Assembly (NCBI RefSeq): GCF_024204665.1
Contig: NZ_CP100355.1
Coordinates: forward strand, 3,267,451-3,331,450
Direction: 5' to 3'
DNA: 64,000 nt
Origin: Natronosalvus rutilus
Lineage (GTDB): Archaea; Halobacteriota; Halobacteria; Halobacteriales; Natrialbaceae
The position numbers and the translations under genes were made by a program. The stretch's first letter is position 1; every line of letters starts with the position of its first letter. Shown piece after piece: positions 31,034-49,523 of the stretch. Below the pieces are notes generated by a model. The model was not told where the DNA came from. It worked only from the letters and a program-made list of their open reading frames with translations, and did not search any database.

Positions 31034-31450
31034 ATGCAAATGAAAAGCAAAATTCAAACCGAAGACGAATCGTCCAACCGGGCGGTATCGCCGGTTATAG
31101 GGGTTATTCTTATGGTTGCGATTACGGTGATTCTGGCTGCTGTGATCGCGGCGTTCGTGCTTGACCTCGGACAAGGTCAAAGCTCAAACGTTAACGCTGG
31201 CGTTGATCTTGAGAATAACTCTGATGATACCGTCACGTTCTCTTTAGTTGACAGTGGCAATGCAGAGTACGTTCAAATTAGAAAGTCAGATGGCACACCA
31301 GTTGCGAGCGGCGATATCGATGGTTCTGGTGACTCTAAACTCGAAAACACTGGTGAATCTGTAAAATTGAAAAATTCAAGCTCCGCCACATATACTGCGG
31401 TTGCTGTTAGCGGAGATGATGAAACCCAGGTAGGGTCTCACTCGCCATAG
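31034..31450 (+). CDS. Archaeal type IV pilin, PilA-type (copy 1)
   Basis: A 138-residue pilin precursor. A short charged leader (QTEDESSNRA) is followed by the H-domain VSPVIGVILMVAITVILAAV, the conserved segment cut by prepilin peptidase PibD and used for pilus core packing. The mature part is a small, acidic, Ser/Thr/Asn-rich beta domain ending DDETQVGSHSP. Such pilins assemble into adhesion pili outside the cell. A second pilin starts 31 nt downstream. No pilB/pilC or pibD is in the window, so assembly depends on genes elsewhere. An in-frame ATG two codons on is an alternative start. Confidence 0.9.
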   Translation: MQMKSKIQTEDESSNRAVSPVIGVILMVAITVILAAVIAAFVLDLGQGQSSNVNAGVDLENNSDDTVTFSLVDSGNAEYVQIRKSDGTPVASGDIDGSGDSKLENTGESVKLKNSSSATYTAVAVSGDDETQVGSHSP

Positions 31451-31481: not shown

Positions 31482-31880
31482 ATGGAAAGTGAAATTCCAA
31501 CCGAAGATGAATCGTCCAACCGAGCAGTGTCGCCAGTTATAGGTGTCATCCTTATGGTCGCAATCACAGTGGTTCTTGCTGCCGTAATTGCGGCGTTTGT
31601 GCTCGACCTCGGCCAGGGGCAGAGCTCAAACGTTAACGCTGGCGTCTCTATTGAAAACGGATCTGATGGGAACGTGACGTTCCAATTGAACGGCAAAGGT
31701 AACGCTGAGAAAGTTGTGATCCGGAATTCTGCTGGTAATGAAGCAACCCCTAATGACAGCTCAACAGACGCTGTGCTTGAAAACACTGGAGAACAGATTA
31801 AATTTGACAATAGTCAAAGCTATTCTGCAGTAGCTGTCAGCGGTGACGACGAAACCCAAGTAGGAAGCTACGAACCGTAA
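31482..31880 (+). CDS. Archaeal type IV pilin, PilA-type (copy 2)
   Basis: A 132-residue paralogue of the preceding pilin. Leader, H-domain and the following VLDLGQGQSSNVNAGV are nearly identical, the middle is divergent (an Asn/Gly-rich stretch with a different length), and the end again converges on DDETQVGSYEP. It appears to be a tandem duplication whose surface-exposed part has diversified. Spacing of 31 nt suggests one transcript. A GGTCC hairpin lies 44 nt after the stop. Confidence 0.9.
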   Translation: MESEIPTEDESSNRAVSPVIGVILMVAITVVLAAVIAAFVLDLGQGQSSNVNAGVSIENGSDGNVTFQLNGKGNAEKVVIRNSAGNEATPNDSSTDAVLENTGEQIKFDNSQSYSAVAVSGDDETQVGSYEP

Positions 31881-34175: not shown

Positions 34176-34396
34176 TCAGCCCCGTCCGTGCAGCGATCAG
34201 TTCTGCTCATGCAGGCCCCCCTCGAGTTGGTGAACGCATTTGCACGACGTGACGAGGGTGCGATCTGGTCCCGTTTGGATCAGGTTGTAGCCACTTGTTC
34301 CCTCCTCGCCGAACAAGAGAAGTGCCAAAGTAGAGGCTTCTGTTTCTGCTACTTGGAACGTAGAGCCGATCGGGACTTGGGCCGTCTGTGAATAGT

Positions 34397-34414
34397 CGCT
34401 ACAGGATTTGAACC
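34397..34414. repeat. Attachment-site repeat, exact 18-nt tRNA-Arg 3' copy
   Basis: CGCTACAGGATTTGAACC is identical to 49453-49470, the acceptor and T-arm end of tRNA-Arg, in the same orientation. GGATTTGAA inside it pairs with TTCAAATCC at 34441-34449, giving a 9-bp inverted repeat. Confidence 0.75.
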
Positions 34415-34495
34415 ACAGTCGTAGCAAAACTGCTCCCTGATTCAAATCCTTCGCGGACGTGATTCGCTCCTCACGTCCGTTCGTCGCAGAATCAT

Positions 34496-34517
34496 GGGCG
34501 CTACAGGATTTGGAACC
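34496..34517. repeat. Second, imperfect tRNA-Arg 3' copy
   Basis: GGGCGCTACAGGATTTG matches the full 3' acceptor side of tRNA-Arg (49450-49466), then one extra G interrupts the match before AACC. A further fragment CCCGTGACAACTT, identical to 49469-49481, follows at 34589-34601. Together they look like a tRNA-Arg 3' portion split by about 70 nt of inserted sequence. Confidence 0.65.
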
Positions 34518-34557: not shown

Positions 34558-34759
34558 ATAACTCGCGCTTCGCGCTGCTCAGCGCTCACCCGTGACAACT
34601 TCCCAGTTCCGGGGTGCTCGGCACTTCGTGCCTGCGCGCCCGGGCTCCTGACGCGGTGGGCCAAGCAAGCCCCCGACTCCACGTGGAAGCGCCAGTCGGC
34701 CACCGCGGCGTGGTTCGGCGGGGGTGGCTCGAGGCACCGTGGTCTTCCTCACAGAGACT

Positions 34760-35776
34760 ATGACCACGACACTCGACCCGATCGACCCAGACGAAGCGTA
34801 CGACATGTACCTCACCGACCGCAAGCCCGACGTCGCGACCAGCACCCTCTACGCCCACCGCTCACGACTCGGCCACTTCCTCCGATGGTGTGACGAAACC
34901 GGTATCGAGACGATCGCCGACCTGACTGGTCGCGATCTCCACGCCTACCGGCTGTGGCGGCGTGACGACGGTGACCTCAACCGCGTGACCGAAAAAACCC
35001 AGATGGATACCCTCCGGGTGTTCATCCGGTGGTGCGAACAACTCGGCTTCGCGCCGACAGACCTGCACCTTGCCGTCCAGAGTCCGACGCTTGAGCCGGA
35101 GGATAACGTCCGCACACAGATGCTCGACGCCGAGCGCGCCGAGGCGATCCTCGAGTACCTCGGGTGCTACGAGTACGCCTCGTTCAATCACGTCGTCCTC
35201 ACCCTCTTCTGGCACTGTGGACTCCGTATCGGCGCCCTGCATACGCTTGACGTCGATGACTACGATCCAACGAGCCGCTCACTCGAGGTTCATCACCGAC
35301 CCGAGAGCGAGACTCCCCTGAAGAACAAAGGCGGCGGCGAGCGCCATCTCGCGCTCGCTAACGACACCTGTGCGATCCTCGATGACTGGCTGGCCAATCG
35401 TCGACCAGCGGTGACCGACGCGTTCGGTCGTGAGCCGCTGTGCGCCTCGCCACACGGTCGCAGCCACAAGACCAACCTTCGGAAGGTGGTATACATGTGG
35501 ACGCGCCCCTGCGTCGTCACCGGCGAGTGTCCCCACGGGCGGACGATCGACGACTGTGACGCCGCTGGCTCGACGAAACCCTACGCGTGTCCGTCATCAG
35601 TGTCGCCGCACGCGATCCGGCGTGGCGCGATCACCCACTGGCTAAAATCGGAGTGGCCCGACCATGCCGTGAGCGATCGGGCGAACGTCTCGCGAGAAGT
35701 GCTCGAGGTTCACTACGACCAGCGCTCGGAATCGGAGAAGATGGAACAGCGACGCCAGTATCTGGATACCATCTAA
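34760..35776 (+). CDS. Tyrosine recombinase / integrase
   Basis: A 338-residue XerC/D-type integrase with an N-terminal SAM-like core-binding domain (about 5-100) and a catalytic domain with R156 (CGLRIGAL), H284 and R287 (HAIRRG), H293, and the nucleophile Y319 in HYD. A lysine in KNKGGGERHL is the likely beta-hairpin Lys. An insertion of about 30 residues before the HxxR motif carries four cysteines (C251, C257, C266, C277) and may bind zinc. The start ATG at 34760 leaves no gap to the att region. It should integrate and excise this element at tRNA-Arg. Confidence 0.9.
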   Translation: MTTTLDPIDPDEAYDMYLTDRKPDVATSTLYAHRSRLGHFLRWCDETGIETIADLTGRDLHAYRLWRRDDGDLNRVTEKTQMDTLRVFIRWCEQLGFAPTDLHLAVQSPTLEPEDNVRTQMLDAERAEAILEYLGCYEYASFNHVVLTLFWHCGLRIGALHTLDVDDYDPTSRSLEVHHRPESETPLKNKGGGERHLALANDTCAILDDWLANRRPAVTDAFGREPLCASPHGRSHKTNLRKVVYMWTRPCVVTGECPHGRTIDDCDAAGSTKPYACPSSVSPHAIRRGAITHWLKSEWPDHAVSDRANVSREVLEVHYDQRSESEKMEQRRQYLDTI

Positions 35777-43038: not shown

Positions 43039-43590
43039 TTAGACTGAGAGCGTGTTGCCGTTAACACGAAGCCATTCCCGCCGGTCCTTATAGTTGGGGA
43101 AAGGGTCCCGACCGTATTCCAGAACGCGTCTGAGTGGTCGTCATGAACGCTGTGCGCCATCTCGTGGACGATCACGTAATCTTGGATGCGAACGGGCGCG
43201 AGGATCAGTCGCCAGTTCAACCGGATCGTGCCGTCGAGATACTCACCCGAGCTCCCCTCGAGCTCGCCAACCACGATCGGGACCGATGAGAGGCCGAGTT
43301 TCGCCTCGTAACGCATGCTCCGCTCGGGGAGATTGGCCTCGGCTCGTTGAGGTATCAATCGACGATGGCTTGGCACTTGCGGCGGATGCTGACGTGATCG
43401 CTCGGCGCGTCGAACCGATGAGTGCGGAGGGTGAACTCGTTGCCGTCGAACGAGAGGCGCAACTCGAGGAGGTCGGCCTCAACATCGGAGATCGAACACA
43501 ACAACCCCGTTTTCTCGAAAGTTCCGCGTCATCGAGCGATACACGTCGCCAAGCTCGTCCCATTCAGGAGGTCGTGGACACCCCTACCTA
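43039..43590 (-). pseudogene. Decayed YgjP/M48-like metallopeptidase gene
   Basis: On the minus strand the zinc site HEMAHSVHDDH and neighbouring segments are clear (YEAKLGLSSVPIVVGELEG; GTIRLNWRLILAPV; DYVIVHEMAHS), but the reading frame is broken several times. The N-terminal part reads in two frames (FRENGVVVFD then SDVEADLLELRL), a TGA follows QAIVD, the frame shifts again before AEANLPERS, and a one-base loss at TLFPNYKDRREW changes frame before the last stretch, which ends at a TAA (43039-43041). Such proteins often accompany type I or II restriction systems, and this one lies just behind the restriction-modification gene. Confidence 0.75.
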
Positions 43591-43604
43591 AGCGATCAAT
43601 AACG

Positions 43605-46538
43605 CTACCCAGTAAAATCAGTGAGACGAGTACTCTCCCTCGCCTCAACCACACCTTCCAACTCAATGACCTCCTTCTCCTCTGCTCGATCAACCAACAC
43701 CTCAGTCTGTTCGCCAGCTCCTTCACGGCGATTCTCCACAAGAGCGGTCACTGCCTGCTTCACCTCATCGAATCGATCCTCCGCGTCGATGACGTTGAGT
43801 ACCGCCTTGTCCAACTCGTTCCGCGCTTCCTTAACAGCATCAGATTCGTCCGGGTCCTCTGCTTCGTCCTCCGCCTGCATCAACGCCTCGAACGCCTCAA
43901 CAATACGCTCCGCCTCCCCATCACTAACCTTGCGCGGATCAACAATCGACATCTGTTCGGCCTCGTAGCGCGCCATCCGAGATCGAGTCATACTCTGACC
44001 GCTCGCCTCCCTACCCTCCAATTCTCGAGTCATCCACGCCAACTTTGAGTTCAAAATTCCTGTTAGGAGCTTGTCGCTAACATCGTCGTCAGGCTTGATG
44101 CAATGGAATTGGTAGTCGACGAACGCATTGGCTTCATTCCAGACGGCCCGGTGCTGCGTCCACAGGAACTCCGCCATCGCTACTGGCGGCCTGTACTGCT
44201 TGATGTCCTCGATATCGAACCACACCTCTCGCCGCTTGCACCGATCGTGGTGCTGATGGCCTTCTTCCTCGCCTTTCTCGACATACTCCAGTAGGGTGTC
44301 GTGGCCGTTGTCCTCTAACCATCCCTTCACGTGTTCCAACGCGGTATCGCCGAACTCGGGGCCGTCGTCAAGCGCCTCCTCAACCAAGTCGCGCACGTTT
44401 AGCACACCCCACTCCTTTGCAGCCTCATCGTCGAACCGTATCTTGGTGATCTGCCCGCTCGCTTTGATCGCCGGAGACGCGTATTCGTCAAGGCCGAGCT
44501 CTTTCCACTCCCCCATTCGGTGATAGAAGTAGGTGTTCCCACCCACCTTCTTTCCAAGATGGAGGTCAGCAACGTCCTGCAATTCGCAGATCCCTTCTCC
44601 GTGTAGCAGTTCGAAGTAGGCGGGTGGCGCGTTGTAGTACAGACTCCACTTCGCGTTCTCACGGAGGGCTACTTGAGAGGTCGCGAGCAATCGGTACTCG
44701 TCAGAGATGATGAGTTTGTCACTATCGAACTCCTGTTCGACCTCCTCGGCGAGGTCGTCCAAGTCCATTCGCTCTTTGACTTTGATGAACTTCACTCGGT
44801 TGTCGTCTCGTTCCCATTCATCTTCGCATTTTTCGACGATGACGACGGTGGCACCGATGAGAGCATCGTCAAACGTCTGCGACGTGAACTTGATGACGGC
44901 GTTGATCTTGTAATGATCTAAGAGGAATTGTTGCAGGTCTTCGCCGTACTGGCTGCTCAACCACCGGTCGCTGGTGATGAATCCGAGTTTCCCGCCGTCT
45001 TTTAGGAACTCGGTGGCGTGTGTGATGAAGTAGCTGTAGATGTCCGAGAATCCGGATAGGTAGTCGGCGTCAAGACCGGAGAGGTGGCTTCGAACGTTCT
45101 CCTTGTCGCCGATGTTCTGATATCGGATGTACGGAGGGTTGCCGACGACGGCGTCCATCCCACCAATCGCGTTTTCAACATCACCGCTCTCCCACTCGCT
45201 TCCACCCGCACCGGCTTTGACGCGCCCAAACCGGAGGGTGTTGGGGTTGATATTGAAGAAGTCGCTAACTTCGACATTCACTGTTTCAGTATGTGAGGTC
45301 AGGTCTTGGATGGAGAGGTTGATCGCCGACAGATGGGCCGGGAACCGATTGATGTCGACACCATGAATCTGACTTAAAATCTGTTCGTGCCCGCCTTTCT
45401 GCTCCGGCAACAACTCCTTCTTCCGATTATAAGCGCTCACGAGGAATCCACCGCTTCCGCACGCAGGATCCATCACTTCGTCGCTCCCGTCGTCGATGCA
45501 AAGACGCGTGATGAGGTCGCAGATCGCAGGAGGTGTGTAGTACTCACCCATCTCGTGCCGACGGTCGGCTGGGATCACACCCTCGTAGATGCGGCCGATG
45601 ACGTCCGAATCGAATTGGCTGAGGTTCTGGTCGTCCAGTTCAATCACGAAATCGCGCACACGACTGGCGACCGAGTCGAGTGGAATTTCGCTGTAAATCT
45701 CGTCGTGGTCGAAGATCGCCTCGAAGTCGACCTCCGTAACAACATGGTCGAAGTACTCCTCGAGATCCTCTTTGACGCGGAAGGGACTGACAGCCATTGA
45801 TTCAATCTCATCCCTGTACGTCAGCGAGTCCTCCAAGATTTTATAGAATAGAATCTTGTTGATCAGCAAGTAGGCAGCTTGATCGGCGAACTCCGCTCGA
45901 ACTTTCGCCTGATCGTCCTCATCAGCATCCTCATAATCAATCCCCTGCGTATCAGTCCAATACTCGAATCGAGCGCGGAAATCCTCATCCTCGTCGAGAT
46001 GCTGCTTCAACTCTGACTCCAACTTCGGGGAAATCTTCTCGTGAAGTGATTTCATCCGCTCAACGAACGCGTCGTCATCCGCGTCCCACTGCGCATTTCC
46101 AGCGCGAATCCGACCGATTTCATCGAGGAACGTGTCGGCGAACTTCTCGAGACTGCCGATTTCGTACGACTTGGTCGATCGCTGCAGGAGTGGCACGCCT
46201 TCTTCGTATGCGTCGTAGATAACCAACCGCGACCCATTGAACGTCGCGAAGTAGGGCGCGCCGATGTCGCCCGCGTACCGGAACGCCTGCCTAATGACCT
46301 TCGGGGCGTACGGGTCGATGTCATTTCGAGGCCTGCTACTCCCATCTGGGGCCTTTGCTTCGATAACCATCGCGGGACTGCCGTTCGATTCGAACAGGAC
46401 GATGTCGGCGAATCCGTCGATGTCTTCCCCGTATTCTGGGCGGATGTCACCGAATGTGAGGCCGTTCCGGTGGGGGTCATCCGAGACGGCATTCGCCAGA
46501 TGCCGGTAAAATTCAAAGTGGATGTCCGCTTCGCTCAT
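43605..46538 (-). CDS. Fused restriction-modification protein (type IIG-like)
   Basis: A 977-residue protein combining nuclease, methylase and specificity parts. A PD-(D/E)xK nuclease domain is at the N-terminus (D45, E60 and K62 in FADIVLF...MVIEAK), a helical connector follows, and the N6-adenine methylase has EYYTPP (332-337), motif I DPACGSG (357-363) and motif IV NPPY (467-470). The region from about 620 to 900 is the likely target-recognition part, and the last 90 residues form a coiled coil. One polypeptide could thus both cut and protect DNA. The ATG complement at 46536-46538 is the best start; GTG/ATG codons upstream add little. A decayed metallopeptidase gene follows it. Confidence 0.85.
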   Translation of the reverse strand: MSEADIHFEFYRHLANAVSDDPHRNGLTFGDIRPEYGEDIDGFADIVLFESNGSPAMVIEAKAPDGSSRPRNDIDPYAPKVIRQAFRYAGDIGAPYFATFNGSRLVIYDAYEEGVPLLQRSTKSYEIGSLEKFADTFLDEIGRIRAGNAQWDADDDAFVERMKSLHEKISPKLESELKQHLDEDEDFRARFEYWTDTQGIDYEDADEDDQAKVRAEFADQAAYLLINKILFYKILEDSLTYRDEIESMAVSPFRVKEDLEEYFDHVVTEVDFEAIFDHDEIYSEIPLDSVASRVRDFVIELDDQNLSQFDSDVIGRIYEGVIPADRRHEMGEYYTPPAICDLITRLCIDDGSDEVMDPACGSGGFLVSAYNRKKELLPEQKGGHEQILSQIHGVDINRFPAHLSAINLSIQDLTSHTETVNVEVSDFFNINPNTLRFGRVKAGAGGSEWESGDVENAIGGMDAVVGNPPYIRYQNIGDKENVRSHLSGLDADYLSGFSDIYSYFITHATEFLKDGGKLGFITSDRWLSSQYGEDLQQFLLDHYKINAVIKFTSQTFDDALIGATVVIVEKCEDEWERDDNRVKFIKVKERMDLDDLAEEVEQEFDSDKLIISDEYRLLATSQVALRENAKWSLYYNAPPAYFELLHGEGICELQDVADLHLGKKVGGNTYFYHRMGEWKELGLDEYASPAIKASGQITKIRFDDEAAKEWGVLNVRDLVEEALDDGPEFGDTALEHVKGWLEDNGHDTLLEYVEKGEEEGHQHHDRCKRREVWFDIEDIKQYRPPVAMAEFLWTQHRAVWNEANAFVDYQFHCIKPDDDVSDKLLTGILNSKLAWMTRELEGREASGQSMTRSRMARYEAEQMSIVDPRKVSDGEAERIVEAFEALMQAEDEAEDPDESDAVKEARNELDKAVLNVIDAEDRFDEVKQAVTALVENRREGAGEQTEVLVDRAEEKEVIELEGVVEARESTRLTDFTG

Positions 46539-46597
46539 ATTCCTCATCTGCTCAGGCCACGGTTTAAGTTGTTTCGCACATATCCCAATGCCTACAG

Positions 46598-46858
46598 ATG
46601 GAAGATGTGCCACAACCCGCTTCGAAACCCTACTCGCCCGACGACCGTGTTCGTGTGTACGTGGGCGAGGACGATGCTGACAGTCGGTTCCATGGCAGCA
46701 AGTGCGTGGTTGTAGACTGTTTCGAGGACGATCTGAACGAGGAAACCGGACGGACGCTCGACCGATACTCGTACCGCATTAGGCCCGTCGACGGCGAGAA
46801 TCCATTACCGGTTGGGTTCCGGCACTTCGACCTCGTGCCCGTCGACAGGAGCGAGTAG
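46598..46858 (+). CDS. Small haloarchaeal hypothetical protein (DUF8139-like)
   Basis: An 86-residue acidic protein rich in strands (RVRVYVGEDDADSRFHG ... YSYRIRPVDG ... FRHFDLVPVD) that could form a small beta-barrel. It resembles small haloarchaeal proteins grouped as DUF8139; function unknown. It is divergent from the restriction-modification gene with about 60 nt between starts, so a shared control site is possible. Confidence 0.65.
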   Translation: MEDVPQPASKPYSPDDRVRVYVGEDDADSRFHGSKCVVVDCFEDDLNEETGRTLDRYSYRIRPVDGENPLPVGFRHFDLVPVDRSE

Positions 46859-46864
46859 ACCCCT

Positions 46865-47047
46865 CTATTTCGCCTCGAATTGATGGACGGCCTCCGTTGG
46901 ATCCAGCCTGTGCTGGTCGGCGAGTTCCATGGCCATCTGCCACGCCCGATCGGCGTTCCGGGGTTCAGCTGCTTCGAACTGGTACGAATAGCGCACGAGT
47001 GCGATGATCGTGATCAGATCGTCCTGAGCGTGTTGTGATGGGATCAT
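46865..47047 (-). CDS. Small helical hypothetical protein (60 aa)
   Basis: The product is mainly helical (DDLITIIALVRYSYQFEAAEPRN, then a DRAWQMAMELADQHRL helix). It converges with the preceding gene, 6 nt apart. Composition is haloarchaeal, and the length and helical layout suggest a small antitoxin-like or regulatory protein, but no family is recognised. Confidence 0.5.
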   Translation of the reverse strand: MIPSQHAQDDLITIIALVRYSYQFEAAEPRNADRAWQMAMELADQHRLDPTEAVHQFEAK

Positions 47048-47526
47048 ACCCGGATTGGCCGCTGCTTCTGGTTTAAACCTTCACCCCCACCTACGAGATC
47101 AATTATGGTTCAAACCAGTTTAGACCCCCATAGAGTCCGGAATTAACTAAGACGATGCTTCATCGAACATCTTACTGGGGCGTTGCCCCGTGGTTCAGGG
47201 GAGTCGTCCCTCTTTTGTGGACTCGAGATCCTACACGCGCAGAACCATCGCCCCTGTCGACCCAGATCTATTCAAGCGAGTGTGAAGCCCGAGCCGCAGC
47301 GAACAACGCAGCAACGGGATCCCGTGCGAACGAGCCGAGCACATCATCTATCACTAGTCGACACCAATATGCTAGCCCCCAGCACGTGTGCTATCACCTG
47401 ACGTGGACTTACGAGACGCACGCCTCTGCTCGACCGTTCACGGAATCCTCATCAATCACATGTGACTGAGAAGATCAGTTCGGAGCCAGAGAACCCGAGT
47501 GGGACGAGGAACAATAGGTGTAACGT
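47048..47526. other. 480-nt spacer, no supported gene
   Basis: The frames here have random composition. A GGGGC-GTT-GCCCC hairpin occurs near 47177-47189. The region separates the restriction module from the peptidase pair. Confidence 0.4.
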
Positions 47527-48492
47527 TCAGGCGATTACTTCCGTAATCGGGGCAAGAAGATCGTCCTGCCGAAGGAGATTGCGCTGAACGTCATCCTTCC
47601 CCGTCCACGAGCGAGGCCCAGTACCGTCCTTGCTCTCCAACAATCCAACATCCTCCAGCTGGATGAGGTACCGCGGGAGCTTGAATCGCTTCTGCTTCCG
47701 ATTATTCCCCGAATAGTTCCACTTCATCACGTCGTCGAACTCGTGCTCCCCCATCCGAGGCATTTCAGACTGCCCCAGCGCGCTGTAGTAGTAGTGCCCG
47801 GAGAGAAGAAGGTGCGGGCCGAGAATCTCACGGATCGTACCGATGTGTTCCGCCCCCTTCTTGAAGAAGTGCGCCATCGCCGCGTTCAGATGCTCGGGCG
47901 GCGAGTGCGGCTGCGCCAGTATCTCAATGAGGATGTTATCGGCCTCGACTTGATCGTTCTCCCACCGGACGAGGTCGACATCAGCGAGGATGTCGACGTA
48001 GTCACGGTACTTTTGCTCATCAACCGAACTCATCTCGGCCAGTTCTTGCGCGGTGATCGGTCCTTCAATGATTAGGTGGGAGAGTACGTCGAGGATCGGC
48101 GTGTACCTGTGTTCCGGGAACGGCAATTGCGAGAATTTCTTCGCCGACGATCGGACGAGCGCCTTCTGAACAGTGTCCTCAACCTTCTTCTTTTGCCTTC
48201 GAATCTCGGACTCGATCTCGTGCAGGTGAGATCGCGACACCTCTCCCGATGCAGCGTCTACTGCGATCTCGCCGATTGGCTCCGCTTTCATAAACTTGAC
48301 ATCGACCGGTTTGTCGCGTTCTTGATCGAAGATGACGCGCGGGAGGCGGATTTCTAGCGGATAAATGTACTCAGACTCCGTGACATTAACTTCACCCAAC
48401 CGCGGCAAGTTGCCGATCTCGAAGGCCAACGTCTCTTCGGCCTTCCTACGGGCTTCTATTTCGCTGATCAGTCGTCCGGTGTCCGTGTTCAT
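47527..48492 (-). CDS. PepSY-like / winged-helix protein partnered with the peptidase
   Basis: A 321-residue protein. Residues 40-90 read like a PepSY-type fold (YPLEIRLPRV ... GEIAVDAASGEV), 90-125 form a helix, and about 130-180 is a winged helix (ILDVLSHLIIEGPITAQELAEM...). The rest (about 190-321) is helical and aromatic-rich, with SGHYYYSALGQSEMPRMGE. No membrane segment. It starts inside the stop of the upstream peptidase gene (ATGA overlap), so the two are made together. I recognise no family for the whole protein; the PepSY label is by pattern only. Confidence 0.6.
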   Translation of the reverse strand: MNTDTGRLISEIEARRKAEETLAFEIGNLPRLGEVNVTESEYIYPLEIRLPRVIFDQERDKPVDVKFMKAEPIGEIAVDAASGEVSRSHLHEIESEIRRQKKKVEDTVQKALVRSSAKKFSQLPFPEHRYTPILDVLSHLIIEGPITAQELAEMSSVDEQKYRDYVDILADVDLVRWENDQVEADNILIEILAQPHSPPEHLNAAMAHFFKKGAEHIGTIREILGPHLLLSGHYYYSALGQSEMPRMGEHEFDDVMKWNYSGNNRKQKRFKLPRYLIQLEDVGLLESKDGTGPRSWTGKDDVQRNLLRQDDLLAPITEVIA

Positions 48493-49115
48493 TCTGAGTC
48501 CTCCGTGAGCGTTTCTTGTAGTACTGCTTGTTCGTGTAGATCAACTGTGATCAGGCGGTTAAGCGTTGTGTCCCAAGCGTCCGCCACTAGATCCTTCGGA
48601 TAGACATCGTACATTCGCCCCCATGGGTCGTTCAAGACAACGCGTCGGTCGTCCATCCCGGTTACGACCACGGCGTGCAGTGGGCCCGGTTCTTCGTAAC
48701 CTTGTAATCGCATCGAGTCGACGACCGCGATGGTGGGGAGGGTGTCTTCCAGTGCGTTTTCCACGACGCTGTAGAGGGAGTCCATCGGTGGGGCGCCCCG
48801 CCACGTTTTCAACTTCCAATTCACCGGTTCCGTTTCCTCTGACAGGGCGCCGAGGTCGTCTTGGTTCGGCGCCCATCCGCTTTGACGGATTCGGATGTGA
48901 TTTTTCATTTCGTCGGGGCGCAGGACAGGTGTCGCGTCTTGCACGGGGTCGGAGGGGTAAACAGTTGAGATGTATTGGAGGGTCATCCACATCGCGTATA
49001 GTAGGCACTCTGGCTCTCGATCGGGCTGCGTGTGCCCGGGAACGCGTAGTGCGTCTATTCCGTCCACCCTTGTCCACGGGGATGGTGTGCTTTCAGCGCG
49101 TGAAATGGGAGACAC
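48489..49115 (-). CDS. C39-like cysteine peptidase
   Basis: A 208-residue cytoplasmic-looking protein with a papain-like layout as in C39/transglutaminase-like peptidases: catalytic C37 in PECLLYAMWM, H147 in GPLHAVVVTGMDDRRVV, and N162/D163 in LNDPWG. The His/Asn-Asp spacing and the GPLHAVVV strand are characteristic. It has no signal peptide or transporter domain, unlike bacteriocin-processing C39 peptidases. It is first in a two-gene operon with the PepSY-like protein and lies next to the tRNA end of the element, a common place for recently acquired defence or offence cargo. Confidence 0.7.
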   Translation of the reverse strand: MSPISRAESTPSPWTRVDGIDALRVPGHTQPDREPECLLYAMWMTLQYISTVYPSDPVQDATPVLRPDEMKNHIRIRQSGWAPNQDDLGALSEETEPVNWKLKTWRGAPPMDSLYSVVENALEDTLPTIAVVDSMRLQGYEEPGPLHAVVVTGMDDRRVVLNDPWGRMYDVYPKDLVADAWDTTLNRLITVDLHEQAVLQETLTEDSE

Positions 49116-49448
49116 CTCGGCAGCGGTACACGTCTGGCGTAGACGTTAGAGTGCTGATACAAAGGTCTTTCTCTGTGGTGATCGCCTCGCTCTCAATGAT
49201 GTTCGACCTCCGAGCTCGTGGCTTCGGTTCAACATGCGCGGGCGCGTGCTGATCAATCAGTACCGCCGCGACTCCAACTGGCGTGTTGCCCGTGATTTAT
49301 GTTCCTGCGCGTGGGTGTAACTCTCGAGGAATTCGCACGACAGCCTCGACCCCCGTGCCAGATCGTCATGAACTCTCGAGCGGAAATCGACCGATCGTTT
49401 ATACGGCCTCGCCGCTTTCGGTCAACTTCCAATCGACTAAATTGAGAA
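49116..49448. other. 333-nt spacer between the peptidase pair and tRNA-Arg
   Basis: No gene is seen. On the plus strand it holds AT-rich bases near 49296-49310 and no long repeats. It is the element's end sequence next to the tRNA, where recombinase arm sites could lie. Confidence 0.4.
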
Positions 49449-49523
49449 TGGGCGCTACAGGATTTGAACCCGTGACAACTTGGTCCGAAGCCAAGCACTC
49501 TGTCCAGACTGAGCTAAGCGCCC
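49449..49523 (-). tRNA. tRNA-Arg (anticodon TCG)
   Basis: On the minus strand the sequence folds as a complete tRNA: acceptor GGGCGCT/AGCGCCC with discriminator A, D-arm GCTC-GAGT-like with AGTCTGGACA loop, anticodon stem CTTGG/CCAAG around loop CTTCGGA, a short variable loop, and T-arm ACGGG-TTCAAAT-CCTGT. The loop gives anticodon TCG, reading CGA and related arginine codons. No intron. CCA is not encoded. Its 3' end is the target of the integrative element at lower coordinates. Confidence 0.95.

Follow-up and report, generated by a model that had tools for sequence, protein, structure and literature searches.

Two overlapping genes of Natronosalvus rutilus, encoding a predicted C39-like peptidase and a putative winged-helix protein, raise the question of whether they form a system of their own and whether that system could serve against viruses. 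Defence has been charted far less in archaea than in bacteria, and this pair is compact, occurs in two archaeal classes, is absent from the profile libraries searched and lies in an interchangeable defence slot. We examined it in the window, that is, the whole stretch of 64,000 nucleotides analysed here, and in 391 Halobacteria genomes. The results support a real, co-inherited two-gene system, and we regard the pair, which travels as cargo beside restriction genes, as a promising candidate for an antiviral module not described so far.

The first gene encodes a predicted C39-like peptidase

The two genes are laid out as follows:

48489..49115, minus strand: C39-like (predicted papain-fold) cysteine peptidase gene, GTG start, 208 aa; Q30, C37, H147, D163
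47527..48492, minus strand: partner gene, ATG start, 321 aa
48489..48492, minus strand: ATGA start/stop overlap of 4 nt, identical in all 10 window-type pairs

The AlphaFold model of the peptidase (pLDDT 83) matches the C39-like structure 3erv in Foldseek (E 2e-6), and 3erv is also its best sequence match in the PDB (E 0.008). VIA-align aligned the model with PeiR (Z 15.9), the C39-like 3erv (Z 15.1) and the C39 domain of PCAT1 (Z 14.9), and further with phytochelatin synthase Alr0975 (Z 14.5) and CtaG (Z 12.9). Against Pfam C39_2 the window protein scores 21.2 bits, just under the cut-off of 24, and the orthologue at locus L028 clears both Pfam cut-offs (PF13529, 28.3; PF03412, 23.0). The product is thus predicted to be a cytoplasmic protein of the papain-like, C39-type peptidase fold, and not, as could have spoken against the first-pass annotation, a protein of unrelated fold.

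In an alignment of 10 window-type proteins, C37 and H147, both named for the peptidase in that annotation, are invariant, and so is Q30, the oxyanion position seven residues before the Cys. For the acid residue it had offered N162/D163: D163 holds, being replaced by Asn in one relative, and N162, which is not conserved, drops out. The Cys-His-Asp/Asn triad and the oxyanion Gln are also present in the pairs of another archaeal class. Neither the peptidase nor its partner has a transmembrane or hydrophobic segment, in agreement with the earlier view that the peptidase is cytoplasmic and that neither protein has export signals.

The protein therefore shares its predicted fold and its Gln-Cys-His-Asp active site with the Peptidase C39 and C39-like families (PF03412, PF13529; 3erv, the PCAT1 domain, PeiR), from which it differs in being stand-alone and cytoplasmic, with no fused transporter, in having an obligate PepSY-like/winged-helix partner, and in having lost the active site in some lineages. 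A C39 family possibly associated with pseudo-murein binding domains, arCOG10864, has been described (PMC4158269).

The partner probably joins a PepSY-like region to two winged helices

The domains predicted for the partner are:

residues ~1-88: PepSY-like N-terminal region
residues ~90-122: long helix
residues ~125-195: winged helix 1
residues ~223-301: winged helix 2, followed by a short tail

The model of this protein is of low to modest confidence (pLDDT 66, pTM 0.37). A PepSY-like N-terminus, as the annotation had suggested, has two independent supports, both weak, and we hold it with moderate confidence. The first comes from sequence: Pfam PepSY (PF03413) does not match the window partner itself, and it is the top match in two distant homologues (residues 7-93 and 9-96; E 0.019 and 0.009), at 15.7 and 16.8 bits against a cut-off of 24. 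The second is the VIA-align match, in the pLDDT 66 model, of residues 5-112 to 5boi, the C-terminal domain of the PepSY protein YpeB (Z 8.6, 87 residues, rmsd 4.2).

VIA-align placed winged helices at 125-195 and 223-301 of the same model, a TrmB-like match covers residues 136-178, and Foldseek returned only generic winged-helix regulators. The first of these is the winged helix already proposed; the C-terminal region, earlier described as tyrosine-rich, is probably a second one.

The two genes are inherited together

The four-nucleotide overlap noted in the window recurs in every window-type pair. The window-type peptidase occurs in 9 of the 391 Halobacteria genomes, with the partner beside it in 9/9, and a plasmid of Haladaptatus carries a tenth pair. 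When the same 391 genomes were searched with a profile of all partners, 31 full-length partner genes were found in 30 genomes, and a C39-like gene stands directly upstream of each of the 31; 28 of these are intact and three are decayed, by a frameshift (L092), an in-frame stop (L104) or truncation (L106). No partner without a peptidase-like gene or its remnant was found among these genomes, so that separate occurrence of the two genes, which would have undone the proposed system, is not what is observed. A scan of genome contigs with sequence patterns gave only six Halobacteria loci because the patterns were branch-specific. In another archaeal class of the same phylum, the pair is present in three sampled genomes, with the Gln, Cys, His and Asp/Asn all in place.

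Peptidase and partner have diverged in step (overall r 0.97; within branches 0.98 and 0.91). When the window is compared with Natronorubrum halalkaliphilum, its closest relative at 92-95% identity, the peptidase gene has a dN/dS of 0.04 and the partner gene one of 0.05, which indicates that both genes are real and under selection. Together with pairing conserved across two archaeal classes, these low values argue that the pair did not arise by chance, and we hold its architecture and obligate pairing with high confidence. At L087 and L088 (genomes G286 and G348) the pair proteins are identical and the genomes are assigned to different families, so a recent horizontal transfer must be assumed there.

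The pair is a cassette in a variable slot of a tRNA-Arg element

The pair sits on a 15-kb element integrated at a tRNA-Arg gene, with these features:

34494..34517: attL, a copy of the tRNA 3' end; in sister genome G006, where the site is empty, attL and attR are joined
34724..35776, plus strand: tyrosine recombinase (integrase) of the element, adjoining attL; nucleotide block 96% identical in sister genome G007
43480..49187: variable cargo slot, holding here the IIG enzyme and the pair
43605..46613, minus strand: type IIG-like restriction-modification enzyme, 1002 aa, second cargo of the slot
47526..49169, minus strand: block common to the window and Natronorubrum halalkaliphilum, 86% nucleotide identity
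49448..49471: attR, the 3' end of tRNA-Arg (gggcgctacaggatttgaaccc)
49449..49523, minus strand: tRNA-Arg (TCG), which holds the integration site

Both the position at the tRNA end and the restriction enzyme had been recognised before. Sister genome G006 has the empty site, without the element, and G007 carries the same element with a complete type I restriction-modification system (HsdR 990, HsdS 399 and HsdM 520 aa) where the window has the IIG enzyme and the pair. The 1.64-kb block common to the window and Natronorubrum consists of the two genes and about 54 bp upstream only; it ends at the stop codon of the partner, and its flanks differ. Since the block held in common with another genus covers the pair alone while the surroundings differ, we conclude that the two genes move as a cassette.

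Some further features of the region were recorded. Beside attL lies a second, degenerate copy of the tRNA-Arg 3' end (window 34387-34414), a similar copy of which is kept in G006, and this suggests that the site had been used for insertion before. In low-GC DNA immediately left of the element, two adjacent genes (31034-31450 and 31482-31880) encode type IV pilin-like proteins with a NRAVSPVIGVILMVAITV motif. Between the IIG enzyme and the pair are two small genes of 86 aa (46598-46858) and 60 aa (46865-47047); in Natronorubrum (L027) DNA homologous to their region is found on the opposite flank of the pair, and at L074 a small gene resembling them occurs close to the pair.

The surroundings are enriched in N6-methylase genes

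Of the 31 pairs, 7 have an N6-methylase gene at a distance of 10 kb or less, against 0.28 expected (Poisson P 2e-8), and the neighbours at other loci include type I restriction-modification, IIG/DrmMI-like, PLD-helicase and IetA/McrBC-type genes. The island location is an enrichment and not a rule, since most of the 31 loci have no N6-methylase gene within 10 kb and in one genome (G059, L076) the pair lies between housekeeping genes; the enrichment also fits general cargo of mobile islands. Our confidence in an antiviral role, for which the evidence is one of location, is moderate to low.

As in the earlier annotation, no named system could be matched: PADLOC-DB 2.0.0 gave no hit for the two proteins, nor for members of the other branches, NCBIfam and PHROGs hold no model for the peptidase or the partner, and a literature search found no description of the gene pair. 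The idea of a virus-borne gene found no support, as scans of viral contigs and a phage collection gave no convincing relative.

The active site was lost at least twice while the pair was kept

The family comprises the window-type branch and a second branch, which has active members (L072-L076 and others). Cys and His are retained in 19 of the 28 intact haloarchaeal pairs, as well as in those of the other archaeal class, and one or both are lost in the remaining 9. One clade of the second branch lacks both residues (L035-L038, L087, L088); in a separate clade the His is lost in L071/L097 and L101, and both residues in L039/L102. At least two changes, on well-supported branches of the partner tree, are needed to account for the dead state. 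Conservation of the catalytic residues, on which the proposal of an active peptidase had depended, therefore holds for most pairs and fails in at least two lineages.

That these proteins belong to one family was assessed by profile comparison. Compared directly, the window-type and dead branches give E 0.021; the dead branch matches an intermediate branch at E 1.7e-38, the window-type branch matches that intermediate at E 0.0048 with Cys, His and Asp aligned, and the partner comparison gives E 1.7e-13. It is the intermediate branch and the partners that link the dead branch firmly to the window type. In the His-less pair L097/L101 the peptidase-like gene has a dN/dS of about 0.05 and the partner gene one of 0.03, which indicates that the His-less form is maintained by selection. 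That dead versions have been retained speaks for a binding function on which catalysis can be superimposed, and we propose that, where Cys and His are gone, the C39 fold persists as a subunit that only binds. Because active sites have disappeared repeatedly while the partner stayed, it can be asked whether the system works through cleavage or through binding.

A gated C39 subunit and its alternatives

The combination of a PepSY-like domain, winged helices and obligate pairing with a C39 protein suggests a gated peptidase or peptide-recognition module. The reading that we favour, tentatively, is that the two genes form a mobile module associated with defence, in which a PepSY-winged-helix partner holds a C39 subunit for recognition or cleavage. 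The cytoplasmic C39/papain-fold subunit would recognise, and in most lineages cleave, a protein; the partner would be its dedicated regulator, with the PepSY-like domain probably docking on the C39 subunit and restraining it, and the two winged helices coupling the complex to DNA or another ligand. A change in the partner linked to infection could then release or redirect the C39 subunit, which in lineages without Cys and His would stay as a binding-only subunit. We infer complex formation, PepSY inhibition, DNA binding, the antiviral role, the trigger and the substrate, and our confidence in the detailed mechanism is low. If it is true, PepSY-type control would operate inside the cell, joined to a winged-helix protein.

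A bolder version, possible and somewhat doubtful, is an undescribed archaeal immune system in which the C39-fold protein, active or dead, is sensor or effector and the PepSY-double-winged-helix protein is the gate, the dead lineages having given up cleavage for signalling by binding only, with lineage-specific membrane proteins encoded just downstream as possible intermediaries.

Known systems resemble the pair in part. In SleB-YpeB and in PepSY propeptides, a PepSY-type partner works with a hydrolase and is thought to keep it inactive; these act in spores or outside the cytoplasm, involve other enzyme families and are not known to have winged helices. ImmA/IrrE-type metallopeptidase-repressor pairs, with a cytoplasmic peptidase beside an HTH protein, follow a general logic like that of the pair, with an enzyme class unrelated to the C39-like peptidase; cleavage of the partner is unlikely to be the sole mechanism here, because dead-peptidase lineages exist. 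A precedent for these lineages is the C39-like domain (CLD) of HlyB, from the RTX exporters, which has likewise lost a catalytic residue, the Cys, and is needed to recruit the substrate (PMC6363468, PMC8277102); the CLD is part of an ABC transporter, whereas the dead proteins here are separate and stand beside a winged-helix partner.

It is also possible, and in our view rather unlikely, that the pair is a regulatory switch of the element or host, in which a DNA-bound winged-helix protein, set by a C39-fold sensor that cleaves if active and binds if dead, controls other genes and does not act on viral infection directly. Two winged helices and the tolerated loss of catalysis would suit such a switch, and known regulator genes adjoin defence operons, CapK/CapS being an example (PMC13373217). 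No constant target gene lies nearby, however: the pair is a stand-alone cassette without fixed neighbours, and it may be flanked by housekeeping genes, as at L076.

The first-pass annotation had left the choice between an anti-phage and a toxin-antitoxin design. The position in a defence cargo slot speaks for the former, and the latter, with the peptidase as toxin and the winged-helix partner as antitoxin and autorepressor, has become unlikely. It would account for the overlapping genes, the patchy distribution, the mobile element and the DNA-binding type of partner; but at least two lineages have lost catalytic residues with the genes still paired and under strong purifying selection, which argues against a simple toxin-antitoxin system. 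The partner is, moreover, encoded second, exceeds the peptidase in size and in conservation (mean identity in the window-type branch 0.52 vs 0.43), and never occurs in the 391 Halobacteria genomes without a peptidase-like gene or remnant.

We give little weight to a chemistry other than proteolysis, in which the C39-like enzyme would modify a protein or peptide of host or virus as a transferase, deamidase or isopeptidase: the structural matches do include phytochelatin synthase Alr0975, the pseudomurein endoisopeptidase PeiR and CtaG, but otherwise the best matches, by sequence as by structure, are to C39 or C39-like peptidases, and fold alone cannot tell chemistry. The classical C39 role, processing of RiPPs or bacteriocin-like peptides, is very improbable, since the loci have in common neither a conserved transporter nor a small ORF and neither protein has a transmembrane segment, even though the closest solved domains include the C39 domains of PCAT/AMS exporters and loci that combine a C39 peptidase with double-glycine peptides are known from archaea (PMC6393860).

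Membrane protein genes adjoining the partner

A membrane protein as a fixed third component was considered and set aside, as the window and several loci have none; such a protein could at most be accessory. At five branch-A loci a conserved multi-TM protein of about 148 aa starts a few nucleotides past the partner stop codon (L026:16596-17042, L030:11239-11706, L031:8175-8621, L032:7763-8206, L034:8319-8765), and these may be three-gene operons. The gene of a different membrane protein converges on the partner at L028/L029, with a 4-nt overlap. In the dead-peptidase clade, a gene for a DUF2254-like membrane protein converges tightly on the partner (L035:10279-11886, L036:9818-11731, L037:10217-11992, L038:3-1214, L077:470-2047).
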